Assembly (NCBI GenBank): GCA_022701275.1
Contig: CP031740.1
Span: 3,049,001 to 3,113,000, forward strand
Direction: 5' to 3'
Source: Microcoleus vaginatus PCC 9802
GTDB taxonomy: Bacteria > Cyanobacteriota > Cyanobacteriia > Cyanobacteriales > Microcoleaceae
Length of the DNA: 64,000 bases
Made by a program: the position numbers and the translations under genes. The notes below the pieces were generated by a model. That model made no database searches and was not told the DNA's origin. It saw nothing but the letters and a program-made list of their open reading frames with translations. Below are positions 22,101 through 63,091 of this stretch, piece by piece. The stretch's first letter is position 1; every line of letters starts with the position of its first letter.

Positions 22101-24662
22101 CCCTTTGCTTACGCCAATTATGGTTTTCTTCTTTGTGGAGTTGTGGGAGATATTGAGTCAGGTTATCAGTTCGGTCAATTGGCTTTAAGTCTAGTGTCAA
22201 AGTTAAATTCTCAAGAAATCAAAGCCAAGACAGCCTTCATAGTAAATTTATTTATCCGACATTGCAAAGAGCATCTCAGAGAAACCTTAGAGCCTTTGGT
22301 GTCAGCTTACTCTAGCGGAATGGAGGCAGGAGATTTAGAATATGCAGGCTATAATTTATTACAGTCCTCCTGTTCAGCTTACTATAGTGGCAAAGAACTG
22401 ACTGTCCTGGAAAGAGAGATAGCAAGAAACAGAGATGCTCTTCATAAAATTAAGCAAGAAACAGCGCTTAATTATATAGAAATCTATTGGCAGGCTATCT
22501 TGAATTTGCTGGGAAAAAGTGAGAATTACTGCCTTCTAAAGGGTGAAGCCTGCGATGAGCAGATGAAGTTGCCATTTTACCAGCAAGCGAACGATAAAGC
22601 GGGAGTTGCATACATATATTTAAACAAACTTTTACTTTGTTATTGGTTTGAAAATTACTCAGAAGCGATTGAGAATATCGCTATAGCAGAGAAGTATTTA
22701 GATGCAGTGGTAGGAATGCCCGTTGTTGCTATCTTCTATTTCTACGATTCTTTGGTGTGGTTGGCGGTGTATTCTGATGCTCCACAGTCAGAGCAACAGG
22801 GGATTCTTGACAGAGTACAAGCTAATCAAGAAAAAATGCAGAAATGGGCGCATCATGCCCCCATGAATCATCTGCATAAATTATATCTAGTGGAGGCTGA
22901 ACGGCATCGGGTTTTAGACGAAAAAATAGAAGCGATCGAGATGTACGACAAAGCGATCAATGTTGCTAAAGAAAACGAGTACATCAACGAAGAAGGTCTT
23001 GCTCACGAACTCGCCGCCAAATTCTATTTGGAATGGGGCAAAGAAAAAATTGCCAAACCCTATTTAATTGATGCTTACTATGCTTACGCTCGTTGGGGAG
23101 CAAAAGCAAAGATTGATTATCTAGAACAGCGTTATCCCCAATTGCTTGCTGTGATCCTGCAACAGGAGCGAACTCGCCAGAATCCGAGCGAAACAATTCA
23201 CACATCCACCCATAGTGAATCATCCCTATCTAACACGAGTAGAACAATTATCGGTAGCACCAGCAGTTGGGGGTTAGTAGATTTGCCGACAGTTATCAAA
23301 GCTTCTCAAACTCTATCTAGCGAAATTAAACTCGATCAATTGCTCACTACCCTCATGCAAGTGGCGGTGAAGAATGCCGGAGCACAAACCGGAGCATTAA
23401 TTTTGAATGAAGAGGGAAACTGGAGGATAAACGTTCACTGCACAAACCGTCAAGACTGCCTTCTGCAATCAATTCCGGTTGAGGAGAGCGATGTAGTTCC
23501 TCTCACTCTGATCAACTACGTCAAACGTACAAAAGAAACCGTAATTTTTGATGATGCTAGCAATCAACCAAGATTTGCATCTGACCCCTACATTATCCAA
23601 CAGCAACCTCAGAGCCTGCTTTGCACTCCGATCAGCGAGCGAGGGAAAATGCTCGGGATTTTGTATTTGGAAAATAATTTAGCAACAGGGGTATTCACGA
23701 GCGATCGCGTCGCCATCCTCAACATCCTGTGCTCCCAAGCTGCAATTTCCTTACAGAACGCCCGACTGTATCAGCAATCCCAGGAGTATGCCCAAAAACT
23801 AGAGCTTTATCTCAACGATCTCAAACAGATGCAACTGCAACTGGTACAGAATGAGAAGATGTCTGCTCTCGGCAATTTAGTCGCAGGAGTAGCCCACGAA
23901 ATTAACAATCCGGTAGGCTTTATCGCCGGCAACTTGCAACCGGCTCAAGAATACCTACAAGATTTGTTCGAGCTAATCGATGTATATCAAGATAGTTTTC
24001 CCAAGCCAGGAGCTAAAGTTGAAGAAAAAATCGAGGCCATAGACTTGGAGTATTTGCGAGAAGATTTGCCCAAATTGATTGGCTCGATGCAGGAGGGAGT
24101 CGAGCGCATTCGCAATATCAGTACAAGTTTGAGAACGTTTTCGAGGGCAGATAGCGATCGACCAGTTGCTTTCAATATTCATGACGGACTCGAAAGCACT
24201 CTCCTGATTCTCAAGCACCGTTTAAAAGCGAGCGAGTTTCGCCCTGCCATTGAAGTTGTGAAAGAGTATGGTAACTTGCCCCTCGTGAAATGCTTTCCCG
24301 GACAGTTAAACCAGGTATTTATGAACGTACTGGCTAATGCCATTGACGCTCTGGAGGAGTCAAATAAGGGGCTCCATTTTAGTGAAATTAAAGCCCTAGC
24401 TAATCAAATAACGGTTCAAACTGTTCTGAGCGAAGACCAAAATCAGGTTTTGATTCGCATTAAGGATAATGGAGTGGGGATGTCTAACGAAGTCAAGGAA
24501 AACATCTTTAACCACTTATTCACAACCAAGTCTGTCGGTCAAGGAACCGGATTAGGATTGTCGATCGCCCACCAGATTGTTGTGGAAAAACATGGAGGTA
24601 CGTTAACAGTGAATTCCTCCCTAGGGCAGGGTTCGGAGTTTGTTATTTGTATTCCAGGGTGA
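19188..24662 (+). CDS. Ser/Thr kinase-ATPase-GAF-histidine kinase giant hybrid
   Basis: 1824 residues. An N-terminal protein kinase (to about residue 270) has VIKLL lysine, HKDLKPANI in place of HRD, DFS in place of DFG, and YISPEQ. An AAA/STAND-like ATPase has Walker A GFSGIGKT (about 343-350) and LVIFLDDLQWAD. A helical TPR-like middle follows to about 1330. A GAF domain starts near 1360. The histidine kinase has H1570 in GVAHEINNP and ATP-binding boxes NAIDALEE, DNGVGMS and GQGTGLGLSIA. The architecture is typical of cyanobacterial trifunctional kinases; the signal is unknown. The DFS change may lower or alter kinase activity. Start ATG 19188 (MASITNLFLGYHINEQIY). Confidence 0.93.
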   Translation: MASITNLFLGYHINEQIYVGNRTLVYRGLRTSNGEPVVIKLLRNDFPRFNELVHFRNQYVIAKNLEIPGSVKAYSLENYHNHYALVMEDFGGISLSSYLARLAAESKEPLEGLPINEFLPIAIQIAHALDGLYRHHVIHKDLKPANILINPTSKEVKLIDFSIASLLPRETQEIQNPNVLEGTLPYISPEQTGRMNRGIDYRTDFYSLGVTFYELLTGKLPFQTDDPIDLVHCHLAKQPLPASIVNTSVPLVLSEMVSKLMAKNAEARYQSALGLKYDLETCLSQWQETGTLANFDLGQRDLCDRFIIPEKLYGRESEVFSLLAAFERVSAGSAEMMLVAGFSGIGKTAVVNEVHKPIVRQRGYFIKGKFDQFQRNLPFSAFVQAFRDFMGQLLSETDAKVEQCKLEILAALGDSAGAIIEVIPELERIIGQQPPVPELSGSAAQNRFNLLFDKFIQVFARKEHPLVIFLDDLQWADSASLKLIQLLISATDNGYLLLIGAYRDNEVFPAHPLMLTLAEIQKTQAKVNTITLAPLDRAGVNCLVADTLACSKPLAEPLTELVYQKTKGNPFFGTQFLKSLHEDGSITFNLDTRYWQCDIARVRSLAITEDVVEFVAIQLQKLPTQTQEVLKLAACIGNQFDLATLAIVSEKVAVDTASALWKALQDGLILPISQVYKFYQAEGNSESVVANGKESEQLPITHDQLPKYKFLHDRVQQAAYSLIPEGQKRSTHLKIGQLLLNNTPEAEREERIFDIVNHLNVGVELITQEAEREKLARLNLVGGKKAKAATAYCAAVEYFNSGRELLAVNSWENQYELTLALHTEAAEAAYLSGDFDRMEELASVVETCAKTLLDKVKVYEVQMQACMAQNKLQEALNTGLQVLKLLGVEFPSEPNPSDIGQVLGETAGILNGKRIEDLIELPEMSEPYKLAAMRLLSSIFAPAYIAAPALLPLTVCKQVQLSVQYGNASVSPFAYANYGFLLCGVVGDIESGYQFGQLALSLVSKLNSQEIKAKTAFIVNLFIRHCKEHLRETLEPLVSAYSSGMEAGDLEYAGYNLLQSSCSAYYSGKELTVLEREIARNRDALHKIKQETALNYIEIYWQAILNLLGKSENYCLLKGEACDEQMKLPFYQQANDKAGVAYIYLNKLLLCYWFENYSEAIENIAIAEKYLDAVVGMPVVAIFYFYDSLVWLAVYSDAPQSEQQGILDRVQANQEKMQKWAHHAPMNHLHKLYLVEAERHRVLDEKIEAIEMYDKAINVAKENEYINEEGLAHELAAKFYLEWGKEKIAKPYLIDAYYAYARWGAKAKIDYLEQRYPQLLAVILQQERTRQNPSETIHTSTHSESSLSNTSRTIIGSTSSWGLVDLPTVIKASQTLSSEIKLDQLLTTLMQVAVKNAGAQTGALILNEEGNWRINVHCTNRQDCLLQSIPVEESDVVPLTLINYVKRTKETVIFDDASNQPRFASDPYIIQQQPQSLLCTPISERGKMLGILYLENNLATGVFTSDRVAILNILCSQAAISLQNARLYQQSQEYAQKLELYLNDLKQMQLQLVQNEKMSALGNLVAGVAHEINNPVGFIAGNLQPAQEYLQDLFELIDVYQDSFPKPGAKVEEKIEAIDLEYLREDLPKLIGSMQEGVERIRNISTSLRTFSRADSDRPVAFNIHDGLESTLLILKHRLKASEFRPAIEVVKEYGNLPLVKCFPGQLNQVFMNVLANAIDALEESNKGLHFSEIKALANQITVQTVLSEDQNQVLIRIKDNGVGMSNEVKENIFNHLFTTKSVGQGTGLGLSIAHQIVVEKHGGTLTVNSSLGQGSEFVICIPG

Positions 24663-35186: not shown

Positions 35187-38100
35187 ATGGCTATGTTTCC
35201 TAAACCCCTAAATCGTTTGGCTACAAAATTTATCGGCAAAGCTCCATTACAAACGGTGCTCGTGGTTCCTTTTTTAGTGCAAATAGTGGGCACGGTAGGA
35301 GTTGTAGGTTGGCTATCTTTCCAAAACGGTCAGCGGGCAGTCAACGAGGTTGCCGCTCAGTTGCGGGGAGAAATTAGCGATCGCATCAAAGACCGCATGG
35401 AAAATTATATGTCAATTCCCCACATTGTCAATCACCTGAATGTTCAAGGCATAAAATTGGGGCAGTTGAACTTAGAAAACCAGCAAAAACTAGAACATCA
35501 TTTCCTAGAACAAATTCAATATTTTGATTCGATCAGCATCATTTACACAGGTAAAGAAAATGGAGAACATTCGGGAGCAATCCGCACTAAAGAGCGGACT
35601 TTGATATCTGCTGCCGACAGCTCTACTGGCAATAAATTAGCTCGGTATAGTGCTGACTCTCAGGGAAACCGCGTTCAATTAGTGCAAATTTCATCCGATA
35701 TTTACGACCCGCGAACTCGCCCTTGGTACATAGCTGCGGCTGCGGCAAAAAAACCTATTTGGACTCCAATCTATACAGATTTTTTGACTAGGGAACTGGC
35801 AATTACTGCTGCTTTACCTATCTACGACGACGCTGGCAAATTGTTAGGAGTAGCGGGCAGTGATTTGCTTTTTTCCCGAATCAAAGAATTTCTCGTTAGC
35901 CTCAAAATTGGCAAATCAGGACAAACTTTTGTGATGGAGCGCTCGGGGATGTTAATTGCTACTTCAACGGCGAGTCAAGAATTCGTGGTAGAAGGTAAAG
36001 AAACAAGACGCATCAAAGCTTCAGAAAGCGAGAATCCGGTAATTCGACAAACCGCACAGCATTTAGATAAACACTACGACAGCTTAGCTAAAATCAATAA
36101 TTCTCAACAGCTTACTTTTGATGTTGACGGCCAGCGAAATTTTATTCAGGTAGCTCCTTTTAAAGACGATCGAGGGTTGGATTGGCTAATTGTAGTAGTT
36201 GTACCAGAGTCTGACTTTATGGAGCAAATTAACGCCAATACGCGCACGACTTTTTTACTGTCGCTTGCAGCTTTGATGGGGGCGGCAATCCTGGGGATTC
36301 TTACTGCTAAATGGGTAGTTCAGCCGATTTTAAGATTGAATGCGGCGGCGAAAGCTTTGGCGCGGAATGAATGGGATACAAAGCTCACTCTAAATCGCCA
36401 AGACGAACTCGGAGAACTTGCGACTGCTTTTAACAGCATGGCAGAGCAATTGCAGCATTCATTTACTTCCCTCTCAGAAAGCGAAAGCCGAGTCAAACAA
36501 TTTCTCAATGCAGTACCGCTAGGCATTTTTATTGCAGAGCCAAACGGTCAACCTCACTACATTAACCCTACAGGAAAAAAACTTTTATCTCAAGGAATTG
36601 TGGCAGCCGATGCCGAAAAACTGCGCCAATTATACCGAGTTTATTTAGCTGGGACTCAGGAAATTTACCCGGCGGAACGCGACCCAATTTTAAATGCTTT
36701 GCAGGGCAAAAGTGTAACTGTTGATGACATGGAAATCTCCTCCAATAACAAAACTGTTCCCCTGCAAGTTTGGGGGACTCCTATTTACGACGCCCAAGGA
36801 AATATTATTTACGGAATGTGCGCTTTTCAAGATATTACGAAACGCAAAATAGCGGAGAAATTATCAAGGGCATACAACCAAAATTTAGCAGTGCAAGTTG
36901 CAGAACGCACCGCAGATCTTGGCAAGGCCAAAGAAAAGTTTTCTAAAGCTTTTCGTTCGAGTCCGAATGCGATTACAATTACAAGAATTAGTGACGGTTG
37001 CCACCTAGAAGTTAATGATAGTTTTTGCCGAATGATGGGCTACACCCAGGAAGAAATTATCGGTAAAACAGCAGTTGAACTCAACTTCTGGGCGAGTTTG
37101 AAAGAGCGTGACCGCATGATTCAAATGTTAAAAGATAAGACAGCAATTCACAATTATGAGCTGAGGTTTCGCAATAAAAATGGTACAGAAAGAACGGCAC
37201 TGCTGTCTATAGAAACCATCGATATTGATGGAGAAGCTTGTTTTTTGTCGATTTCTAGCGATATTACCGATCGCCAAAAAGCAGAAACTGCCCTCCGGGA
37301 AGCCGAAGAAAAGTACCGCAACATTTATGAAAATGCTTTGAATGGAATTTTTCAAACTGCTGTTGACGGGAAATACATCAGCGCTAACCCCGCTTTAGCA
37401 AACATCTACGGTTACGACTCGCCAGCAGATTTAATAGCAGCACAGCCGAATTTCAATAACCAGCTTTACGTGAAACCCAACCGCCGCGACGAATTTGCAG
37501 CGCTGATGAACGAGTGCGGGATACTATCAAACTTTGAATCGGAAATTTACCGCAAAGATGGCAGCATAATCTGGATTTCGGAAAATTGTCGCGCTGTCTG
37601 CGATGAAGCAGGAAATTTACTTTACTACGAAGGTTTTATTAAAGACATTACTGATAGCAAACAAGCGGAAATCAAAATGCAGCAGGCGAAAGAAGCGGCC
37701 GAAGCAGCAAACAAAGCTAAGAGTACCTTTCTCGCCAATATGAGCCACGAATTGCGATCGCCCCTGAACGCGGTCATAGGCTTTGCTCAAGTCCTGATCC
37801 GCAGTCAAACGTTGTCTCAGGAAAATCAAGAAGATGTCGGAATTATCCTGCGGAGTGGCGAACATTTACTGGCTTTAATTAACCAAGTTTTAGACTTGTC
37901 AAAAATCGAAGCCGGACGCACGACGCTTAATGCCAAAAGCTTCGATTTGTACCAACTAATCGACGATTTAGAAGATATGTTTGCTCTCAAAGCGGAGCAA
38001 AAAGGTTTGCAGTTAATCTTCGACAGAGACGCAGAAGTTCCCCATTACATTTGTACTGATGAAGTTAAATTGCGTCAAGTGTTAATTAATTTGCTCAATA

Positions 38101-39137
38101 ATGCAATTAAATTTACTTCAGAAGGGGGAGTGTCGGTGCAAGTCAAAGGAGAAAGGCGGAATATACATAAAAACAGCACTGACCAATTGCCCAGCCCCTA
38201 CTGGCTGCATTTTGAAGTTCAAGATACTGGTGCAGGCATTGCTGCTGAGGAAATCCATCAGTTGTTTGAAGCATTCGTGCAGACGAAAACAGGTAAAGAT
38301 TCTCACGAAGGAACGGGTTTAGGTTTAGCTATTAGCCGCCAGTTCGTGCAATTAATGGGAGGTGAAATTACTGTTAGCAGCGAGATCGGAAAGGGTGCAT
38401 TATTTCAGTTTTACATCCAAGTTCATCTGGTTGAAGCTAGTGATATTGAAAGCAAAAAAAGTCAACGTCGAGTTATTGCCCTCGAACCGAATCAGCCGAG
38501 TTATCGCTTGCTAATTGTGGACGACAAACCTTTGAACCGCCAACTGTTAGTAAAACTTCTCAGTCCACTCGGATTTGAGTTGAGAGAAGCTAATAACGGT
38601 AAAGAAGCGGTTGATATTTTTATGGAGTGGGAACCGCATCTGATTTGGATGGACATGAGAATGCCTGTCATGGACGGCTATGAGGCAACGAAACAGATTA
38701 AAACTACAACTGGCGGGCAAGCAACGGCGATTGTGGCCCTAACTGCTAGCGTTTTGGAGGAAGAACGGGCGGTGATTCTTTCGGCGGGTTGCGATGATTT
38801 TATGCGGAAACCGTTCCGAGAGGAGGATATCTTTGTGGCAATGGGAAAACATTTAGGAGTACGCTATATTTATGAAGATCCAACCCCAGTAAGTGTCGCA
38901 GGTGTAGAGGAGTCAAGTCAGGAGGTACTCACACCGGAGGCTTTTGCCTCTCTTTCTCCAGACTGGATGGCCCAATTCAAGCAAAGTATTTTGAGTGTGG
39001 ACATGGAGGCGATCGCTAGTTCGATCGCACAAATCGGCACTGTCAATCCCTCTCTTGCGGGCAAGCTTCAAGATTGCATTAATAATTTTGAATATGACAG
39101 AATTTTGAACATAATCGAACTCAGCGAGGAACCGTAA
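35187..39137 (+). CDS. Cache-HAMP-PAS hybrid histidine kinase with receiver
   Basis: 1316 residues. TM1 is about 20-45 and TM2 about 350-375 (TFLLSLAALMGAAILGI), bracketing a periplasmic dCache sensor with DPRTRPWY. A HAMP and three PAS domains follow. HisKA has H854 in NMSHELRSPLN; the ATPase has NLLNNAIKF, DTGAGIA and HEGTGLGLAIS. The receiver phospho-acceptor is D1156 (WMDMRMPVMDGYEA). A C-terminal helical tail (LSPDWMAQFKQSI to YDRILNIIELSE) resembles that of the kinase at 41169. It starts at ATG 35187 and is followed after 7 bp by the next signalling gene, so the two are probably cotranscribed. Confidence 0.93.
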   Translation: MAMFPKPLNRLATKFIGKAPLQTVLVVPFLVQIVGTVGVVGWLSFQNGQRAVNEVAAQLRGEISDRIKDRMENYMSIPHIVNHLNVQGIKLGQLNLENQQKLEHHFLEQIQYFDSISIIYTGKENGEHSGAIRTKERTLISAADSSTGNKLARYSADSQGNRVQLVQISSDIYDPRTRPWYIAAAAAKKPIWTPIYTDFLTRELAITAALPIYDDAGKLLGVAGSDLLFSRIKEFLVSLKIGKSGQTFVMERSGMLIATSTASQEFVVEGKETRRIKASESENPVIRQTAQHLDKHYDSLAKINNSQQLTFDVDGQRNFIQVAPFKDDRGLDWLIVVVVPESDFMEQINANTRTTFLLSLAALMGAAILGILTAKWVVQPILRLNAAAKALARNEWDTKLTLNRQDELGELATAFNSMAEQLQHSFTSLSESESRVKQFLNAVPLGIFIAEPNGQPHYINPTGKKLLSQGIVAADAEKLRQLYRVYLAGTQEIYPAERDPILNALQGKSVTVDDMEISSNNKTVPLQVWGTPIYDAQGNIIYGMCAFQDITKRKIAEKLSRAYNQNLAVQVAERTADLGKAKEKFSKAFRSSPNAITITRISDGCHLEVNDSFCRMMGYTQEEIIGKTAVELNFWASLKERDRMIQMLKDKTAIHNYELRFRNKNGTERTALLSIETIDIDGEACFLSISSDITDRQKAETALREAEEKYRNIYENALNGIFQTAVDGKYISANPALANIYGYDSPADLIAAQPNFNNQLYVKPNRRDEFAALMNECGILSNFESEIYRKDGSIIWISENCRAVCDEAGNLLYYEGFIKDITDSKQAEIKMQQAKEAAEAANKAKSTFLANMSHELRSPLNAVIGFAQVLIRSQTLSQENQEDVGIILRSGEHLLALINQVLDLSKIEAGRTTLNAKSFDLYQLIDDLEDMFALKAEQKGLQLIFDRDAEVPHYICTDEVKLRQVLINLLNNAIKFTSEGGVSVQVKGERRNIHKNSTDQLPSPYWLHFEVQDTGAGIAAEEIHQLFEAFVQTKTGKDSHEGTGLGLAISRQFVQLMGGEITVSSEIGKGALFQFYIQVHLVEASDIESKKSQRRVIALEPNQPSYRLLIVDDKPLNRQLLVKLLSPLGFELREANNGKEAVDIFMEWEPHLIWMDMRMPVMDGYEATKQIKTTTGGQATAIVALTASVLEEERAVILSAGCDDFMRKPFREEDIFVAMGKHLGVRYIYEDPTPVSVAGVEESSQEVLTPEAFASLSPDWMAQFKQSILSVDMEAIASSIAQIGTVNPSLAGKLQDCINNFEYDRILNIIELSEEP

Positions 39138-39144
39138 ATACCCG

Positions 39145-40569
39145 ATGACTTCAACTTTACCTAGAACCAATCGAGCTAATATTTTAGTAGTGGACGATAC
39201 GCCCGAAAACCTGCGGCTGCTGGCCGGAATTTTGAGCGAAAAAGGCTATCAAGTTCGCCCCGTACCCAATGGCAAGCTAGCATTGTCTGCTGCTCAAAAA
39301 ATACCCCCGGATATAGTGTTGCTGGATATTATGATGCCGGAAATGGACGGCTATCAAGTTTGTCAGCAACTCAAAAGTTCTGAAATTACCAAAGACATTC
39401 CTGTTATTTTTATTAGTGCCATCAATGACGTGCTGGATAAAGTTAAAGCTTTTGCAGTGGGCGGAGTTGACTTTATTACTAAACCGTTTCACGTTGAAGA
39501 AGTTTTAGCCCGGATAGAAACTCATTTAAAAATTTGTTCACTGCAACAAACTTTGCAAGAAAAAAATCAAGATTTAGCAACGGCGCTGCACCAACTGCAA
39601 GCCACCCAAGAGCATTTGATTCAATCGGAAAAAATGGCAGCCCTAGGACAACTTATTGCTGGCATTGCCCACGAAATAAATACCCCCCTGGGCATTATAG
39701 GTTCCTCTATTAATAATATAGCTAATTTTTCCGACGATTTTTTAGAAAAATTTCCTGAAATTTATCAACAACTTTCTGACGAAAGCAAAGCTTATTTTTT
39801 AGCTTTACTGTACAGAGCCAGCCATCAAGAAGTTTTATTCACAAGCAGAGAGAAACGCAAATTTAAGCAGCAGTTGGCGGCGGATTTGATGGCAGAATCT
39901 GTTGAGAACTCTGAGGAAATTGCGGATACTTTAGTTGACATGGAAATATACGAAAAAATAGAAGAGTTCTTGCCGCTTTTTAAATCGCCGGATTGGGAAG
40001 TAGTTTTAAATAGTGCTTACCAGTTTGCGAGCTTTAAAAAAAGTATTAGCCTGATCCAAAGAGCAACAGCGAAGTCTGGGAAAGTAGTATTTGCCTTAAA
40101 AACCTACGCTCATTTTGATAGCAAACCAGAAAAAGTCCAGGCGAACTTGCACGATGGCATTGAAACGGTGTTAACCCTTTATCAAAATCAACTGAAACAC
40201 GGTATAGAAATAGTTAAAAATTATGGAGATTTACCCCAAATTATGTGCTATCCCGATGACTTAAATCAAGTTTGGACTAATCTCGTTCATAATGCCCTGC
40301 AAGCCATGGATTATAAAGGTATTTTGACAATTGAAACTCGGCAGCAAGAGGCAAAGATTTTCCTCAAGTTTACTGATAACGGCAAAGGTATTCCCTCAGA
40401 AGTTATTCCCAAAATTTTTCAGCCGTTTTTTACGACTAAATCTGCGGGCGAAGGTAGCGGTTTGGGCTTGGATATTGTGAGAAAAATTGTGGAAAAACAC
40501 GAAGGCACAATTGCTGTAGATTCTGTACCGGGGCAGACCACTTTTACAGTCTCGCTGCCTATTTATTAA
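39145..40569 (+). CDS. Receiver-histidine kinase (REC-HisKA-HATPase)
   Basis: 474 residues. The N-terminal receiver has DDTPENLRLL, acceptor D61 (VLLDIMMPEMDGYQV), switch FISA and Lys in FITKPF. A coiled coil (LQQTLQEKNQDLATALHQL) links it to a kinase with GIAHEINTPLGII, N-box NLVHNALQAMD, G-boxes DNGKGIPSEV and GEGSGLGLDIV. It has no membrane or sensor domain, so it should be controlled by phosphorylation of its own receiver, plausibly by the Cache kinase 7 bp upstream. Overlap with the coding style of its neighbour suggests one operon. Confidence 0.92.
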   Translation: MTSTLPRTNRANILVVDDTPENLRLLAGILSEKGYQVRPVPNGKLALSAAQKIPPDIVLLDIMMPEMDGYQVCQQLKSSEITKDIPVIFISAINDVLDKVKAFAVGGVDFITKPFHVEEVLARIETHLKICSLQQTLQEKNQDLATALHQLQATQEHLIQSEKMAALGQLIAGIAHEINTPLGIIGSSINNIANFSDDFLEKFPEIYQQLSDESKAYFLALLYRASHQEVLFTSREKRKFKQQLAADLMAESVENSEEIADTLVDMEIYEKIEEFLPLFKSPDWEVVLNSAYQFASFKKSISLIQRATAKSGKVVFALKTYAHFDSKPEKVQANLHDGIETVLTLYQNQLKHGIEIVKNYGDLPQIMCYPDDLNQVWTNLVHNALQAMDYKGILTIETRQQEAKIFLKFTDNGKGIPSEVIPKIFQPFFTTKSAGEGSGLGLDIVRKIVEKHEGTIAVDSVPGQTTFTVSLPIY

Positions 40570-40779
40570 ACACAACTTACCTGTAGGAGGCTGATTCCCC
40601 GTGACACTCGTCGCTGTCTCGCTGACAAATACAAGATTTATTACAAGAAATTGGGTTTATCTTCGGAAGTCCTATTAAAATAAGATAGGGGACAGATATG
40701 CTGCATCCTTGCCCGAAATCAATAATGTAAAAGCAAGTCATGTCAGTAAACCTACTAAAATTTAAGCAGAGAGGAAAAG

Positions 40780-41172
40780 ATGAATAAGCCTATAATTCTT
40801 TGCGTTGATGATGAACCGGATATCTTGAATACTCTCAAGATGCAGCTCAAAAATGAATTTAAAAATGCTTACTTTTATGAATTAGCTGAAAGTGGTGATG
40901 AAGCTTTAGATTTACTGGAGGACTTTCAAGAAAAAGCTCAGGTGATTGTGGTTGTTTCTGATTGGCTGATGCCTGGAATTAAAGGTGACGAACTTTTAAT
41001 TAAAGTTCACCAAAAATATCCTAAAATTATTAAAGTAATGTTGACGGGACAAGCGGATGCAGCGGCTGTTCAGCGGGCAGTAGAAGAAGCAGATTTATAC
41101 TGTTGTTTGTACAAACCCTGGCAAAGCAAAGACTTAATAGAGATTATAAAATCGGGGCTGGCTAAGTTATGA
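40780..41172 (+). CDS. Single-domain response regulator
   Basis: 130 residues, a stand-alone receiver: acidic pair D10/D11 (ILCVDDEPDILNTLK), acceptor D61 (VVSDWLMPGIKGDEL), Thr in VMLTGQAD and Lys in CLYKPWQ. There is no output domain, so it probably shuttles phosphate or regulates by binding. It is a close relative of the N-terminal receiver of the next protein, with which it overlaps by ATGA, implying translational coupling and a recent duplication. Confidence 0.93.
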   Translation: MNKPIILCVDDEPDILNTLKMQLKNEFKNAYFYELAESGDEALDLLEDFQEKAQVIVVVSDWLMPGIKGDELLIKVHQKYPKIIKVMLTGQADAAAVQRAVEEADLYCCLYKPWQSKDLIEIIKSGLAKL

Positions 41173-43739
41173 AAAAACCTGTGATTGTTTGTATTGATGA
41201 TGAACCTGACGTTTTGAATAGTTTAAAGATTGAACTGAAAAAGGTGATCGGCGATCAGTGTATAATTGAAACCGCTGAAGGGGGGGCTGATGCTTTAGAG
41301 TTGCTGGCTGATTTGCAGGCAGATGAATACGAGATTGCTTTGGTGCTTTCCGATTATATCATGCCGGATATTAAAGGTGATGAACTGCTCAGAAGAATTC
41401 ACGAAAACTCGCCGGAGACGCTGACCATTATGCTAACGGGGCAAGCAGATTTGGAAGCCCTGAGTAATGCTATAAAGTATGCTAAATTGTACCGTTATAT
41501 TCCTAAACCTTGGCAAAATGAAGACTTAAAATTAACGGTAGTAGAAGCAGTTCATAGTTATTTGCAAGATCAAAAATTAACAGATGAAATTCATAAGCGC
41601 CAAGAAGTAAACGAGGAGTTAAAGCTAGTAAATGAGGCGCTGTCTGCGAGTGAAAGCCGCCTGAGTCAATTTTTAGAAGCTTTGCCAGTGGGGGTATCTG
41701 TTTATCATCCCGATGGTTCGATCGCCTATTTAAACCAGGCAGCGCGGGATTTGCTGGGTGCAGACACGATCCCGGAAAGCACTGCGGAACAATTAGGTGC
41801 CACTTATCAACTTTATGTTGCCAATACTGATGAGCTGTACCCGCCGGATAATCTGCCAATTTTGCGGTCACTGAAAGGAGAATCTGTCAAGGTTGACGAT
41901 CTAGAAATCCGTCAAGATGGCAAAAGAATTGCGATCGAGATCAATACCACGCCGATTTTTGACGCTAGCGGAAATATTGTTTATGCGATCGCAGCTTTTC
42001 AAGATATTAGCGATCGCAAACAAGCTGAAAAAATACTAGCAGATTACCAGCACACATTAGAAGCCCAAATTGAGGAACGGACAGAACAACTGCAACAAGC
42101 CGCATTAGCTGCTGAAGCAGCAAACAAAGCTAAAAGCACCTTTCTTGCCAATATGAGCCACGAGTTACGCACCCCTCTCAATTCTATACTCGGGTTTGCA
42201 CAAATCATGGAACCCAGCCCGGATCTTAGTGTCGAAAACCGAGAAAATATGAGAATTATTCGCCGTAGTGGCGAACACTTGCTCACCTTGATCAATGAAG
42301 TCTTAGACTTGTCAAAAATCGAAGCGGGGCGGATGACGCTCAACCCGAAAAACTTCGACCTCTACCGCTTGCTTGACGATTTGCAAGATATGTTTCAACT
42401 GCGGGTAGAGAATCAAGACTTGCAGTTGCGTTTCCAGCGCGATGCTGACGTTCCTCAGTACGTGCGAGCCGATGACATTAAACTGCGGCAAGTGCTGATT
42501 AATCTTCTGAGTAATGCGATTAAGTTTACGCAAACAGGCGAAATTATCTTAAGAGTTATAAAGTTAGAAAAATCGGGATATCTGGATTTATTGGATAGTC
42601 CCACCGCTTGCTTTGATACCACAAGAAGTATTCGGGATTTTTCGAGAACTAGCAGTGATTTTGCAAGGGATCGATGGAGGGATGAGGCTGAGGATTCAAC
42701 TGTGCCAGCTTTTTTCCTTCTGTTTGAAATTGAAGATACAGGAGTTGGCATTGCTCCCGAAGAATTGGGCAATATTTTTAAGGCTTTTGTGCAAACAGCT
42801 TCCGGTAAAAAAAATCCGAAAGGTACGGGTTTAGGATTGAAGATCAGCCGTCAATTTGTCCGCCTGATGGGAGGAGAAATTGTCGTAGAAAGTGAACTGG
42901 AACTCGGCACCACTTTTAAATTTGAAATTCCAGTCGGTGCAGTTTATGCTGCTGAGCTTCCAGATCCGCAACTTAACCGCGAAGTTAGTGGGTTGGAACC
43001 CAATCAACCGTGCTACCGGATTTTAATTGTGGACGATCGCGAAGACAACCGCCAACTTTTAGTCAAAATGCTTTCTCCTTTAGGTTTCGGGGTGGAACAA
43101 GCCACCAACGGCCAGGAAGCAATAGAAATGTGGGAAAATTGGCATCCGCATTTAATTTTGATGGATGTGCGAATGCCAGTGATGGACGGCTACGAAGCTA
43201 CTAAACAAATTAAGGCTAGAATCAAGCAGAGAGAGCAAGAGCAGCAAGGAAATGGGGAAATGAATATTTCCCATCCCGACTCCCCGATTCCGAAGATTAT
43301 TGCTTTGACAGCTAGTACAATTGAAGGAAAGCGATCGTTTGCTTTATTGGTCGGCTGCGACGATTTTATTAGCAAACCTTTCCGCAAAACAGATATATTT
43401 GATACCCTCAGCAAACATTTGGGGGTGAAGTATGTCTACTCTAACTCAACGGACTTTATCTCAACAGGCGATCGAAATAATTTATCTGGCTCCCTCCCTA
43501 AAGCTGCGCTTGCTTATTTACCTACACTTCCCGCAGAATGGATAGACAACATGAAGCAGGTAATTCGCAGTGCTGATTTTGACTTAATTGTCAGAACAAT
43601 TGACGAAATAAGGGAGCCTCATCCTGAATTGGCGGAAATCCTCCAGGGTCATCTCGATAATTTTGATTACCAGAAAATTCTCAATTTAATTGCCGAGGCG
43701 GAGGAATCAGATCATGCAGATGAAGGCGGAACAAACTGA
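41169..43739 (+). CDS. REC-PAS-histidine kinase-REC hybrid
   Basis: 856 residues. Receiver with D62 (VLSDYIMPDIKGDEL), a coiled coil, a PAS domain (SRLSQFLEALPVGVSVYHPD), HisKA with H331 (NMSHELRTPLN), the ATPase (NLLSNAIKFTQTG, DTGVGIA, PKGTGLGLKIS), then a second receiver with D666 (ILMDVRMPVMDGYEA). The C-terminal helical tail LPAEWIDNMKQVI to YQKILNLIAEAE is shared with the kinase at 35187. It is cytoplasmic, with input through the first receiver and PAS. It overlaps the preceding gene by 4 bp and the following one by 26 bp. Confidence 0.93.
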   Translation: MKKPVIVCIDDEPDVLNSLKIELKKVIGDQCIIETAEGGADALELLADLQADEYEIALVLSDYIMPDIKGDELLRRIHENSPETLTIMLTGQADLEALSNAIKYAKLYRYIPKPWQNEDLKLTVVEAVHSYLQDQKLTDEIHKRQEVNEELKLVNEALSASESRLSQFLEALPVGVSVYHPDGSIAYLNQAARDLLGADTIPESTAEQLGATYQLYVANTDELYPPDNLPILRSLKGESVKVDDLEIRQDGKRIAIEINTTPIFDASGNIVYAIAAFQDISDRKQAEKILADYQHTLEAQIEERTEQLQQAALAAEAANKAKSTFLANMSHELRTPLNSILGFAQIMEPSPDLSVENRENMRIIRRSGEHLLTLINEVLDLSKIEAGRMTLNPKNFDLYRLLDDLQDMFQLRVENQDLQLRFQRDADVPQYVRADDIKLRQVLINLLSNAIKFTQTGEIILRVIKLEKSGYLDLLDSPTACFDTTRSIRDFSRTSSDFARDRWRDEAEDSTVPAFFLLFEIEDTGVGIAPEELGNIFKAFVQTASGKKNPKGTGLGLKISRQFVRLMGGEIVVESELELGTTFKFEIPVGAVYAAELPDPQLNREVSGLEPNQPCYRILIVDDREDNRQLLVKMLSPLGFGVEQATNGQEAIEMWENWHPHLILMDVRMPVMDGYEATKQIKARIKQREQEQQGNGEMNISHPDSPIPKIIALTASTIEGKRSFALLVGCDDFISKPFRKTDIFDTLSKHLGVKYVYSNSTDFISTGDRNNLSGSLPKAALAYLPTLPAEWIDNMKQVIRSADFDLIVRTIDEIREPHPELAEILQGHLDNFDYQKILNLIAEAEESDHADEGGTN

Positions 43740-45372
43740 AAACTATCAAGCAGATATTTTAGTAGTTGACGATACGCCAGATAATCTGCGTTTGTTGATT
43801 AGAATTTTGCAAAAAAATGGCTATAAAGTTCGACCAGTTACTAATGGTTTTTCGGCGTTAGATGCAATTCAATCTAGCGCACCCGATTTGATTTTACTCG
43901 ATATTATGATGCCGGATATTGACGGCTACGAACTATGTAAGAAATTAAAATCAGAATCGGAATTTAGGGAAATTCCCATCATTTTTCTCAGCGCGCTAGA
44001 AGAAGGAATAAATAAAGCCAAAGCTTTTGAAGTTGGCGGAGCAGATTATATCACCAAACCTTTTCAAGTAAAAGAAGTATTGGCGCGAGTGAGCAATCAG
44101 CTTACTGTGCGTTCATTGCAAATACAATTGCAAGAAAAAAATCAAAAATTGACCGCTCAAAATATCCAGTTGCATCAGGAAATCGCGGAACGCCACCAGG
44201 TAGAAATGGAAACAAGATTGCTGCTGCAGGCCACTCAAGCTATTAGCAAATCTGAGGATTTTGAGTCGGCTATAGATGTGATTTTAGGTTTAATTTGCCA
44301 AACTATTGAATGGAATCTGGGCGAAGCTTGGATTCCTTGCAGTGAGGGGTTTTTAAAATGCGCTACAGGCAGGTACGTCAGCGACTTGAGGTTTGCCCAA
44401 TTCCGACAAACAAGTTGGCAGTTGATTTTTGCTCCCAGTGTGGGACTCCCAGGCAGGATTTGGCAGTCGCAGCAGTCTGAATGGATCGATGATGTTTCTA
44501 CTGCACCGGAACAAGTTTTTTTACGCGCGGAAATTGCGGTGAGTGTGGGATTGAAAGCGGCTTTTGGGGTGCCAATTTTGGCCGACAACCAAGTGTTAGC
44601 TATTTTGATTTTTTATCGCGAAAAAGTTCTGAAATGTCAGCCGCGCTTGTTGGAATTAGTGAGTGCGGTTGCTACGCAGCTAGGTTCGTTGATTCAGCGG
44701 AAACAAGCTGAAGCAGCGCTGAAAGTGCAACAAGGACAAACCGAGAAATTGCTGCTGAATATTTTACCGAAACCTATTGCAGATCGCTTGCAAAAAGAGC
44801 AAAAGTTGATAGCGGATCATTTTGATGAGGTGAGCGTCTTGTTTGCTGATTTGGTGGGTTTTACAGAGTTTTCGGCTCACAAAAGTCCGACGCAGTTGGT
44901 AGAAATTTTGAACGGGATTTTCTCGGAGTTCGATAGGTTGTCTGAATTGCACGGGTTGGAAAAGATTAAGACGATTGGGGATGCTTACATGGTGGTTGGG
45001 GGTTTGCCGACGCCGCGGGAGGATCACTGTGAGGCGATCGCACTTTTAGCTTTGGAGATGCAGGCAGCTTTGAGGAGGTTTAATGCCAAAATGGGAGAAA
45101 ATTTTCAATTGAGGCTCGGAATTGACAGCGGTTCGGTGGTGGCTGGAATTATTGGGATTAGTAAATTTAGCTATGATTTGTGGGGGGATACTGTTAATGT
45201 TGCTTCACGCATGGAATCTAACGGATTGCCTGGTAAAATTCAAGTGACGGCGGCGACTTACGAGCGTTTGAAAGAGCAGTTTGTTTTGGAAAAACGGGGT
45301 TATATCCCGATTAAAGGTAAAGGAAGAATGCTGACTTACTGGTTAATTGAAGAACAAAAGAAATCTTTTTAG
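43714..45372 (+). CDS. REC-GAF-class III adenylate cyclase
   Basis: 552 residues. A receiver (acceptor D63 in LLDIMMPDIDGYE), a coiled coil and a GAF domain precede a class III cyclase. Metal aspartates D379 (FADLVGFTEF) and D423 (TIGDAYM) are present. The purine-selecting pair is K419 (KIKTIGD) and D488 (SYDLWGD), the adenylate rather than guanylate pattern. The transition-state pair N495/R499 (NVASRME) is intact, so it should make cAMP. ATG 43714 follows GGAGG at a good distance; TTG 43690 is an alternative. The start lies 26 bp inside the hybrid kinase gene. It is the only effector with a recognisable second messenger in the cluster. Confidence 0.93.
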   Translation: MQMKAEQTENYQADILVVDDTPDNLRLLIRILQKNGYKVRPVTNGFSALDAIQSSAPDLILLDIMMPDIDGYELCKKLKSESEFREIPIIFLSALEEGINKAKAFEVGGADYITKPFQVKEVLARVSNQLTVRSLQIQLQEKNQKLTAQNIQLHQEIAERHQVEMETRLLLQATQAISKSEDFESAIDVILGLICQTIEWNLGEAWIPCSEGFLKCATGRYVSDLRFAQFRQTSWQLIFAPSVGLPGRIWQSQQSEWIDDVSTAPEQVFLRAEIAVSVGLKAAFGVPILADNQVLAILIFYREKVLKCQPRLLELVSAVATQLGSLIQRKQAEAALKVQQGQTEKLLLNILPKPIADRLQKEQKLIADHFDEVSVLFADLVGFTEFSAHKSPTQLVEILNGIFSEFDRLSELHGLEKIKTIGDAYMVVGGLPTPREDHCEAIALLALEMQAALRRFNAKMGENFQLRLGIDSGSVVAGIIGISKFSYDLWGDTVNVASRMESNGLPGKIQVTAATYERLKEQFVLEKRGYIPIKGKGRMLTYWLIEEQKKSF

Positions 45373-46346: not shown

Positions 46347-47201
46347 ATGGCACTTCAAAGATTGGCAGAATTTTATCCTAACTATCAGGAAGAGATCTTT
46401 GCTGGAGACGACATCAAGGGATTTGATGTTTATGCTGGCGACTCTGATGAAAAAGTAGGCACTGTTTATGATGCTTTGGTTGATGACACTGGTCGTTTCC
46501 GCTATCTGGTAATTGATACCGGTATTTGGATTTTTGGCAAAAAAGTATTGTTGCCAATCGGCTCGGCTCGCTTCGACTACGGAGCCCGTCGCGTCCACGC
46601 CACAGGTCTTCGCAACAAAGCTCAAGCAGAACAATTGCCGGCTTACAATGAATTAGAAGCAGTAGATTACGATCGCGAAGAACAGGTAAGAGGCGTCTAC
46701 CGCACTCAAGAAAGTGCCGCTCCAAGCACTGCAACTGCTGCTAGCTATGATCGCAGCAGCTACAACTACGATATGGACCGCCCCCTCTACGAAACCAACG
46801 AACAGCAGCACCAAAATCTCAAGCTTTATGAAGAACGCTTGATAGCCAACAAACACCGCGCAAAAACAGGCGAAGTAGCTGTTAGCAAGCGCGTGGAAAC
46901 TGAAACAGCGCGAGCTTCAGTACCCATTGAAAAAGAACGAGTCGTAATTGATCGAGTAACCCCGGTAGAAGCAGGTCGAGTAGTTTCAGTCGGTGAGGCT
47001 GACTTCCAAGCAGGGGAAGTTGCACGCATGGAAGTCTACGAAGAAACGGCTGACATTCACAAGGAAGCTTTCGTCCGGGAAGAAGTCAACGTCAGAAAAG
47101 AAGTTGTTCGCACCACTGTTGAGGGCGAAGAAACCTTGCGTCGTGAAGAATTAGAGGTTAAGACCGATGGAACTGCGGTTGTAGATAATAAAAACATCTA
47201 A
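46347..47201 (+). CDS. PRC-barrel/DUF2382 stress protein
   Basis: 284 residues. An N-terminal PRC-barrel (FDVYAGDSDEKVGTVYDALVDDTGRFRYLVID) precedes a C-terminal DUF2382 (YsnF-type) domain rich in charged pairs (LKLYEERLIANKHRAKTGEV, VEKERVVIDRV-like, GEETLRREELEV). A Glu/Arg-rich linker separates them. Such proteins are linked to osmotic, heat or desiccation stress in cyanobacteria and Deinococcus; the molecular role is unknown. No signal peptide. GAGGAAA precedes ATG 46347. A second DUF2382 gene follows about 220 bp downstream. Confidence 0.88.
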   Translation: MALQRLAEFYPNYQEEIFAGDDIKGFDVYAGDSDEKVGTVYDALVDDTGRFRYLVIDTGIWIFGKKVLLPIGSARFDYGARRVHATGLRNKAQAEQLPAYNELEAVDYDREEQVRGVYRTQESAAPSTATAASYDRSSYNYDMDRPLYETNEQQHQNLKLYEERLIANKHRAKTGEVAVSKRVETETARASVPIEKERVVIDRVTPVEAGRVVSVGEADFQAGEVARMEVYEETADIHKEAFVREEVNVRKEVVRTTVEGEETLRREELEVKTDGTAVVDNKNI

Positions 47202-47422
47202 ACCAATCGCAACAGGTATTGCATAGGAATTTCGCCTTAATCACATAATTCTGTCAGGGCGCAGGTTTGATTTGATTGGTAGCGATGGCGCAATTCCTAT
47301 GTGAGCGGCGGCGGGGGTACAACACTTGTCTACTTTTGGCAAAGTTGATGCACTTTCCCCGCCTTTACCAATTTACCGTTACCACCTCATAATAAAAATC
47401 CCTAAGCAGGAAAGTTTAAAAA

Positions 47423-48316
47423 ATGAACGGTCAAGCATCAGCAGAAAAGATAGCAACTGCCCAATCAATAACCCGTCTCAACCGGGTGCCTGAAAAAGTC
47501 AGAACTAAGCTAAAAAGTTTTACCGTCAAAGACAACAAAGGTCAGTTGGTAGGCAAAGTTAAAGATGTCTATTTTGATGCTAAAGGTCAGTTAAACTTTG
47601 TGGTAGCCGGGCTAGGTAGCGAAAATACCCGCGCTTTTTTATTAAGTATTAAGCTGCTCAAAAAAGTCGATTATCACCAAAAATCGCTGTTTGTAACTAT
47701 TAATTCGGATCAAGTCGATCTGCTGCCGATTGTTTCGGCAAGTGGGGGTCATCCCTATTTAGAAAATGCGTCTGAAACGCATAGTGAATTTAGCAACAGT
47801 GAGTTAACCAATCCCTCAACAGTTATGTCAAATCTAACAGATGCCGATCGCACAGATGCAAATTTGGAGACAGATGAGGATGAGGAAAACTTCGATATTG
47901 TCGATCAAGAAGTAATTCGCCTGCTAGAAGAACGATTGGTGATCAATCGCAGCAAGCGCAAAGTTGGCGAAGTCATAGTGCGTAAAGAAATTGAAACTCG
48001 GATGGTACAAGTACCCATCCAGTGGGAAAAGCTGATTGTCGAACAAGTCGGCGACGATCCGAAGGTGTTGGCAGAAATAGATTTAGGCGAGGGCAACATC
48101 ACCGGTATAGATTTGACGGAGATTAAGAGCGATCGCCAAGAACCGACCGTTAAGGCTGAATTTACCTCTGTGCAGAAAGCTAGCAAGATCTTAAATTCGA
48201 TCGCCTCTCAACCCCGTCACGGTTGCGTCAAAGTCCGCCTAGAACTCGTTCTCGAAGACAAGCAACTGCAGGATACTTACCAAAAATGGATGACGGAACA
48301 CCACTCCGAGAGTTAA
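47423..48316 (+). CDS. DUF2382 protein with PRC-like N-terminus
   Basis: 297 residues. The N-terminal region (KLKSFTVKDNKGQLVGKVKDVYFDAKGQLNF) is PRC-barrel-like, the middle is acidic (DEDEENFDIVDQ), and the C-terminal part is DUF2382 (IRLLEERLVINRSKRKVGEV, IRKEIETRMVQVPIQWEKL). It appears to be a diverged paralogue of the gene upstream and may act in the same stress response. It starts at ATG 47423 with CAGGAAAG upstream. Confidence 0.85.
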   Translation: MNGQASAEKIATAQSITRLNRVPEKVRTKLKSFTVKDNKGQLVGKVKDVYFDAKGQLNFVVAGLGSENTRAFLLSIKLLKKVDYHQKSLFVTINSDQVDLLPIVSASGGHPYLENASETHSEFSNSELTNPSTVMSNLTDADRTDANLETDEDEENFDIVDQEVIRLLEERLVINRSKRKVGEVIVRKEIETRMVQVPIQWEKLIVEQVGDDPKVLAEIDLGEGNITGIDLTEIKSDRQEPTVKAEFTSVQKASKILNSIASQPRHGCVKVRLELVLEDKQLQDTYQKWMTEHHSES

Positions 48317-62863: not shown

Positions 62864-62929
62864 GAAGGAAACGATCGCTATTACTAACATAACTTTTTTG
62901 AAAAAAGGTGGCAAGTGCGGTATGATGTG

Positions 62930-63060
<131 letters not shown>

Positions 63061-63091
63061 ACTCACTTTTGAACGCATCTGCGAGGTACGG

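Follow-up and report, generated by a model that had tools for sequence, protein, structure and literature searches.

How five adjacent signalling genes might be wired to a nucleotide cyclase is the question raised by a locus within the window analysed here, the whole 64,000-nt stretch of Microcoleus vaginatus PCC 9802 that covers positions 3,049,001 to 3,113,000 of contig CP031740.1. The initial annotation described five adjacent genes with six receivers, three kinases and overlaps of 4 and 26 bp, and read them as a branched phosphorelay that converts an external signal to cAMP. Open reading frames and Pfam matches confirm the inventory: five neighbouring plus-strand ORFs encode three histidine kinases, six receiver (REC) domains, one dCache sensor and one REC-GAF-cyclase. 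The wiring is a different matter, and we consider it probable that the locus encodes a serial two-component cascade of REC-controlled kinases, not a phosphorelay.

All features of the cluster lie on the plus strand. HK1 (35187..39137, 1316 aa) has the Pfam order dCache-HAMP-PAS x3-HisKA-HATPase-REC, the receiver being of class II and followed by a helical tail, with H854 and D1156 as predicted phosphotransfer residues; its dCache and HAMP domains point to a membrane location. HK2 (39145..40569, 474 aa) joins a class I REC (D61) to a histidine kinase with a long insert (H176), and was recognised by Pfam, by an HK2-type profile and by the conserved insert; its HisKA match of 18.6 bits falls below the Pfam cut-off of 26.9. 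A gap of 210 bp (40570..40779) follows, compared with 7 bp between HK1 and HK2, a contrast that the initial annotation left unstressed. The lone receiver (40780..41172, 130 aa) is of class III, with D61 and a Cys (C109) at the usual aromatic switch position. It overlaps by 4 bp (41169-41172) with HK3 (41169..43739, 856 aa), which reads class III REC (D62)-PAS-HisKA-HATPase (H331)-class II REC (D666) and ends in a helical C-terminal tail (approximately residues 783-842; 43515..43694). HK3 overlaps in turn by 26 bp (43714-43739) with the cyclase gene, CYC (43714..45372), in which a class I REC (D63) and a GAF domain precede a Guanylate_cyc domain, that of class III nucleotide cyclases. The CYC ORF spans 43690-45372 and gives 560 aa from a TTG or 552 aa from the ATG at 43714; the numbering of D63 in the initial annotation is correct provided that translation starts at this ATG. 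Kinase and receiver classes were assigned with local profiles and similarity cuts built on this genome, and Pfam served to check the assignments for the proteins of the window and for 16 further ones. No Rfam family matched within the cluster at gathering scores, and among the NCBIfam matches listed for the five proteins all fell below the curated cut-offs except a general PAS model on HK1.

Class III adenylate cyclases are recognised by two metal-binding Asp residues, a Lys/Asp pair for base recognition, an Asn and an Arg. The CYC sequence carries this set, its base-recognition residues K419 and D488 are adenylate-type, and its best matches among solved chains are adenylate cyclases. The initial reading of a Cache input and a REC-controlled cyclase is supported. 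CyaC of Arthrospira and Anabaena is a single chain of the order REC-kinase-REC-cyclase, and CyaC-type cyclases (class IIIb) have Thr at the base-recognition position. HK3 and CYC taken together present REC, kinase, REC and cyclase in that same order; unlike CyaC, they are two chains from separate overlapping genes, the cyclase chain has an additional REC and a GAF domain, and D488 stands where CyaC-type enzymes have Thr. The genome also encodes a 1173-aa REC-HK-REC-CYC protein, and this paralog does have the Thr.

The expectation of conserved synteny was borne out, the order being kept throughout the Microcoleus group wherever the sequence covers it (L009, L016 and L021 stop at contig edges), save in L006. 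Over the relatives' loci, the window itself included, HK1 and HK2 are separated by 7 bp in 17 of 20; HK2 and the lone receiver stand 99 to 439 bp apart over 21; the lone receiver shares 4 bp with HK3 in 20 of 21 when counted from the aligned start (the twenty-first, L024, shows +17 from the aligned start and the 4 bp from the first start of its ORF); and HK3 overlaps CYC by 26 bp in 20 of 25, the remainder comprising three overlaps of 20 bp, one of 29 bp and one 1-bp gap. Given its variable length, the 210-bp gap is perhaps a border between two transcription units. The His, Asp and Lys residues of phosphotransfer and the metal and base residues of the cyclase that were tested are identical in all orthologs that span them, with the single exception of Thr for Ser at the CYC receiver in 2 of 26 orthologs, and the phospho-acceptor His and the receiver D, D, T/S and K are conserved in all orthologs spanning these sites. 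At a strict cut-off (E 1e-150) the cyclase gene is present in 27 of the 28 genomes of the window's genus and in none of the 32 from other genera of the family. In L006 a rearrangement, which could be an assembly artefact, has deleted HK2 entirely and HK1 for the most part, together with the lone receiver and the first REC of HK3, and has left the cyclase and a PAS-kinase-REC frame that has no clear start (TTG at 8729).

The genes at the centre of the cluster form a unit that is found again, with its members adjacent, in other cyanobacteria, and that we name here by its three parts, an HK2-type kinase, a lone REC and a REC-effector; the window has all three genes, in this order and on one strand. 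Similarity to the lone receiver of the window, at E 1e-38, was used to collect loci, and no more than 21 or 14 candidates were scored per genome, for which reason the genome tallies are lower bounds. Removal of five of the 70 loci with identical last 100 residues (L124, L125, L134, L147 and L151) left 65 distinct lone receivers of class III, found in 51 genomes; 14 of these receivers come from the window's genus and 51 from elsewhere. For 63 of the 65 the nearest recognised same-strand upstream gene is an HK2-type kinase within 1.1 kb (no more than 150 bp away in 49, 151-400 bp away in 6 and farther in 8; in L136 two unassigned ORFs intervene), the two lacking one being L115, at a contig edge, and L116. 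A second class III REC follows on an effector within 400 bp in 47 cases, the effector being a cyclase (18), a HisKA kinase (17), an HK2-type kinase (3) or unassigned (9, some of them because the locus ends); it is absent directly downstream at this cut-off in the other 18. Some effectors are truncated in this set, since the sequence of 30 of the 70 loci extends over only about 3.4 kb. As a control, none of five lone receivers of other classes (<200 aa) in this genome, a small sample, is preceded on its own strand by an HK2-type kinase, and for one of them (3657682) such a kinase lies on the opposite strand. Longer stretches of the order are repeated as well: a second locus of the same genome, locus B, reads dCache-hybrid, REC-HK, REC and REC-PAS-PAS-cyclase, with a 4-bp overlap, and L121 reads HK2-type kinase, REC, REC-HK-REC and REC-CYC, an order that L112 and L129 match in part.

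In a tree of these receivers the lone ones occupy one side of a branch and every effector receiver the other, with one change between labels; the effector set also takes in four outgroup receivers and therefore is not a clade in itself, and support is weak for 58 of 113 inner branches. The two sets also differ in sequence. At the switch position 53 of 65 lone receivers have Cys where effector receivers have Tyr; W62 (65 of 65) and R99 (62 of 65) are near-fixed in the former, and Y107, R108 (each 47 of 47) and Y109 (46 of 47) in the latter. The initial annotation took the lone receiver for a natural phosphate shuttle. This is not supported, for in one genome (L007) the lone receiver has two in-frame stops while HK1, HK2, HK3 and CYC remain open, and no Hpt lies in the cluster or the window. 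A rather unlikely alternative, compatible with the proposed cascade, is that the lone receiver binds the sister receiver of the effector as a split PleD-like doublet, gating by binding and not by competition for phosphate. The largely adjacent or overlapping placement of the two receivers, their near-fixed differing residues and the single branch of the lone ones would fit such a doublet, as would P. aeruginosa PilH, which lowers PilG phosphorylation through the kinase and not as a sink (PMC10519157); against it, every one of the 65 lone receivers retains the phosphorylation residues, one of them with Ser in place of Thr, which is what would be expected of receivers that accept phosphate, and the decayed copy of L007 suggests that an effector can manage without its lone partner.

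A second pairing, that of a hybrid kinase followed by a REC-output gene, occurs twice in the cluster, as HK1-HK2 and as HK3-CYC. A class I REC stands at the N terminus of 27 ORFs in the window and 40 other stretches, which cover part of the genome only. In 19 the nearest recognised upstream gene within 400 bp encodes a kinase that ends in REC, a fraction that may be biased upward since the stretches were hand-picked after some pairs had been noticed, and in 8 no such kinase lies directly upstream. Gene order of this kind suggests which kinase addresses which receiver. It is nevertheless conceivable, if unlikely, that two or three independent two-component systems merely stand side by side, HK1-HK2 and REC-HK3-CYC having no cross-talk; the variable gap between HK2 and the lone receiver and the richness of the genome in such genes (155 matches to the modules of the cyclase protein) would allow this, but the nearly constant HK2-type kinase upstream of lone receivers, the repetition of the entire order in locus B and its retention in the Microcoleus group all speak for a connection.

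Flow of phosphate from Asp to Asp needs an Hpt. Pfam finds no Hpt domain in the five proteins, and none of the 11 Hpt matches of the genome falls inside the window. The tails that follow the receivers of HK1 and HK3 were considered as a hidden Hpt and rejected by sequence: no His is conserved among 84 distinct tails (29 of 84 in the best column), and hhalign gives 1.1% for tail against Hpt and 99.5% for a split-Hpt control. In a structure model the tail is predicted to form four short helices (block pLDDT 72-90), and with the tail-containing model the best 50 of 1645 Foldseek matches are receivers or receiver proteins. The phosphorelay of the initial annotation finds no support in the sequence of cluster, window or tails. 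A true multistep phosphorelay, in which the receivers of HK1 and HK3 pass phosphate through an Hpt encoded elsewhere to HK2, the lone receiver or the cyclase, is the least probable reading, for although the 11 genomic matches mean that an Hpt could act in trans, and CdgK-CdgS of Anabaena relays through an Hpt that ends the hybrid kinase (PMC9927289), the tail that occupies the corresponding position here has neither the conserved His nor any Hpt signal.

The serial cascade fits the absence of an Hpt, and likewise L006 and L007, which after their losses still keep a kinase-REC and the cyclase, better than does a phosphorelay. Its foundations are catalytic residues that are intact, order and overlaps that are conserved, two pairings that recur, and lone and effector receivers that separate on the tree; every phosphotransfer, with its direction and sign, and the signal itself are inferred. 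The Cache domain of HK1 would sense a periplasmic ligand and H854 would autophosphorylate, with phosphate passing both to D1156 in the kinase's own receiver, as a brake, and to the receiver of HK2 at its D61. Once phosphorylated, the latter would switch the HK2 kinase up or down, and HK2 would phosphorylate two sister receivers of the same class, the lone receiver at D61 and the first receiver of HK3 at D62, the lone receiver acting as a competing or modulating partner and not as an obligatory link. HK3, which may also read its own PAS domain, would phosphorylate D666 in its own second receiver and D63 in that of the cyclase, and the receiver-GAF region of CYC would set cyclase activity and hence cAMP.

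PilG and PilH are both free-standing receivers, unlike the receiver pair considered here. The P. aeruginosa PilG/PilH-Chp-CyaB system resembles the present one in having two receivers for one kinase and a link to an adenylate cyclase, CyaB, and differs in the evidence there against PilH as a phosphate sink (PMC10519157). In Anabaena, AphC "purportedly phosphorylates and activates" CyaC in trans (PMC4284465). In CdgK-CdgS of Anabaena PCC 7120 a membrane hybrid kinase lies immediately upstream of a REC-second-messenger enzyme and is cotranscribed with it (PMC9927289), the same arrangement of hybrid kinase and REC-output gene; the differences are the Hpt with which CdgK terminates and the c-di-GMP output, whereas the window has no detected Hpt and a cAMP-type cyclase. 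In Rhodospirillum centenum CheA3 phosphorylates the REC of the kinase CheS3, which phosphorylates the lone CheY3 (PMC3868531); there too one kinase controls a second through its receiver and only the second phosphorylates the lone receiver, although that system is of the chemosensory type with MCP input and has, in the portion available, neither a cyclase nor a receiver-effector sister. LvrB of Leptospira, from the LvrA-LvrB system, is termed a prototype of Rec-controlled kinases (PMC13269768), and the available part of that account has no lone receiver and REC-effector pair on the Leptospira side; LvrB (8vc9) is also the top Foldseek match of the HK2 model (rmsd approximately 26), a model so poor (pLDDT 60, whole-chain matches with rmsd over 20) that no inference is drawn from the HK2 fold. 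Hik36-Hik43-Rre6 was set aside as a relative, being a tax3/pilG system (PMC7656254). The view that no described system has exactly this arrangement therefore holds in the literature searched, outside which most subscription papers lie, and must be tempered in that a known relative exists for almost every link. The parts are of known kinds; the three-gene unit is without an account among the literature matches listed.

Filamentous cyanobacteria have very many two-component genes and few known partners for them. We tentatively propose, as an idea somewhat less secure than the cascade itself, an undescribed cyanobacterial unit in which a long-insert kinase is joined by a pair of sister receivers, a free one and an effector-fused one, that have stayed adjacent since an old split, the free one with its Cys switch serving as a dedicated modulator of the threshold or duration of the effector, in many cases a cyclase; the Microcoleus group would have this unit stacked, with a Cache-sensing hybrid kinase before it and a second kinase with a cyclase after it, giving a three-tier cascade to cAMP. 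A repeating three-part unit would provide a wiring rule with which kinase-cyclase pairs could be predicted, and would offer a natural case of paired free and effector-bound receivers. If true, a three-tier cascade of Asp-controlled kinases would be a bacterial counterpart of amplifying kinase cascades.

It is clear from open reading frames and Pfam domains that the plus-strand cluster of the initial annotation is accurately described: it has five genes, which carry six receivers and three kinases, and both overlaps are there. The genes are HK1 (35187-39137), a dCache-HAMP hybrid kinase with three PAS domains; HK2 (39145-40569), a receiver joined to a kinase with a long insert; a lone receiver (40780-41172); HK3 (41169-43739), REC-PAS-kinase-REC; and the cyclase CYC (43714-45372), REC-GAF-cyclase. 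The window lies inside one 6.70-Mb contig. Clear relatives of the CYC gene are present in 27 of the 37 loci found in named genomes (L005-L031), in cyanobacteria including Microcoleus, Tychonema, Lyngbya and other Oscillatoriales, and the order HK1-HK2-REC-HK3-CYC is retained wherever the stretch read spans it, with a few exceptions. At L006, after a rearrangement between HK1 and HK3, what remains is a stub of HK1 (269 aa), a PAS-kinase-REC frame (660 aa) and the cyclase; at L007 the lone receiver gene has decayed; at L020 HK2 is split into two pieces; and L030 and L031 are more distant and carry a REC-PAS-cyclase, preceded in L030 by a dCache hybrid kinase. The L006 rearrangement, between two paralogous kinases, has shrunk the cluster of Microcoleus vaginatus HSN003 (L006:7692-10711), and in Microcoleus sp. 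FACHB-61 (L007:7761-8153) the decayed receiver gene is interrupted by two in-frame TGA codons, with open genes on either side. HK3 copy number varies from one to three, with three in L012 and L014 and two in L019, L020 and L025; two HK3 pieces in L021 read as fragments of a single copy. The HK3 copies in these five loci have diverged from one another.

Under a strict cut-off, 27 of the genus's 28 genomes have the cyclase gene (the exception, G015, is 74% complete), and none of 32 from the family's ten other genera does. With an identity of at least 74%, the lone receiver is present in at least 26 of 29 genus genomes among the matches listed, which include a copy with two stops (G024) and none for G015, G037 or G038. 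Two adjacent PRC-barrel/DUF2382 genes (46347-48316) lie downstream of the cluster, as in many relatives, and a cobalamin riboswitch (Rfam RF00174, 55.8 bits) occupies 62923-63069.

Two recurrent pairings can be read in the cluster. In the first, a hybrid kinase precedes a REC-output protein, as in both HK1-HK2 and HK3-CYC. Among 27 ORFs that start with a class I receiver (the local-profile class of HK2 and CYC), 19 have a kinase ending in a receiver as their nearest recognised gene upstream within 400 bp, a proportion that may be high, as these ORFs came from the window and 40 stretches of its own genome selected from cyclase-protein matches after pairs had been noticed among them. At most 16 residues from the hybrid-kinase end lies a helical tail, conserved and about 60 residues long (84 tails, 81 with a Trp; 43515-43694 in HK3), which occupies the position of the Hpt in CdgK and matches no Pfam family on HK1 or HK3.

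The second pairing is a three-gene unit on one strand, comprising an HK2-type kinase, a lone receiver and a REC-effector, and four occur in the genome: in the window and at 2.70, 4.45 and 5.52 Mb. Lone-receiver matches at E 1e-38 are found in at least 66 of 195 genomes of the order and at least 16 of 291 of the phylum, tallies that are lower bounds because few candidates were scored per genome. Reading of 70 loci (30 plus 40) yielded 65 distinct lone receivers, spread over 51 genomes. In 63 cases an HK2-type kinase is the nearest recognised gene upstream on the same strand, at up to 1.1 kb (49 lie within 150 bp, six at 151-400 bp and eight farther; two unassigned ORFs intervene in L136). In a small control, none of five lone receivers of other classes had such a kinase upstream on the same strand, and one had it on the opposite strand. 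The hallmark of HK2-type kinases is a long kinase-helix region (median 195 residues; 74 of the 108 examples were near full length), in which positions lying after the phospho-acceptor helix and before the following kinase motifs are conserved. A second receiver of class III, the class of the lone receiver and the first receiver of HK3, follows within 400 bp downstream in 47 of the 65; its carrier is a cyclase in 18, a HisKA kinase in 17, an HK2-type kinase in 3 and an unassigned protein in 9. In the variants L091, L120 and L123 the class III receiver is on the upstream HK2-type kinase itself, followed by the lone receiver. Elsewhere in the window, a 1824-aa protein (19188-24662) ends in an HK2-type kinase by local profile, and no recognised receiver gene adjoins it.

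The acidic pair and phospho-acceptor are invariant across the 65 lone and 47 effector receivers, the conserved Thr is replaced once, by Ser, and no lone receiver lacks the Lys, which 46 effector receivers share, the remaining effector row being a gap. The residue after the acceptor is Trp in 65/65 lone receivers versus Tyr in 36/47 effector receivers, and 53 lone receivers have Cys at a site holding Tyr in 46 effector receivers. A quick tree that used four other receivers as outgroup, and of whose 113 inner branches 58 are weak, sets the lone receivers apart on one side of a branch with SH-aLRT 100, lone and effector labels being separated by a single change; the effector receivers were not recovered as a clade, the outgroup falling within them. 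Given this branch and the residue differences, the lone receiver looks like a single old lineage with its own constraints rather than a group of recent, local duplicates.

CYC has both metal aspartates and the pair K419 and D488, which is typical of adenylate cyclases, and among solved chains its best matches are adenylate cyclases too. Where a cyclase sits on a class III receiver and could be read, the base position holds Thr (18/18 distinct proteins; L082-L151 and L055; the survey comprised 17 of the 18 downstream of lone receivers, L089 being cut, and locus B of the same genome). CYC, whose receiver is of class I, has Asp there, and for this reason the window output departs from the kind of cyclase that the three-gene unit usually carries.

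How a signal might cross the cluster bears on the branched phosphorelay originally proposed, of which the branched outline stands; the terms phosphorelay and, for the lone receiver, shuttle are not supported, given that no Hpt was found in the cluster or the window and given the loss at L007. Neither Pfam searches of the five proteins nor the window yielded an Hpt, nor was one recognised by sequence in the hybrid-kinase tails, and we know of no route for phosphate from one receiver to the next without one; it is for these reasons proposed that the signal would pass through control of each kinase by its own receiver. Such control has been demonstrated in CheA3-CheS3-CheY3 (PMC3868531). The separate ideas are likewise covered by CyaC with AphC (PMC4284465), CdgK-CdgS (PMC9927289), PilG/PilH (PMC10519157) and LvrB (PMC13269768); no description of the three-gene unit was found among the papers listed from open-licence literature. 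Within the proposed scheme the lone receiver would form the branch point, where it may act as a sink, a binding partner or a separate output, and its loss in L007 argues no more than that it is not obligatory.
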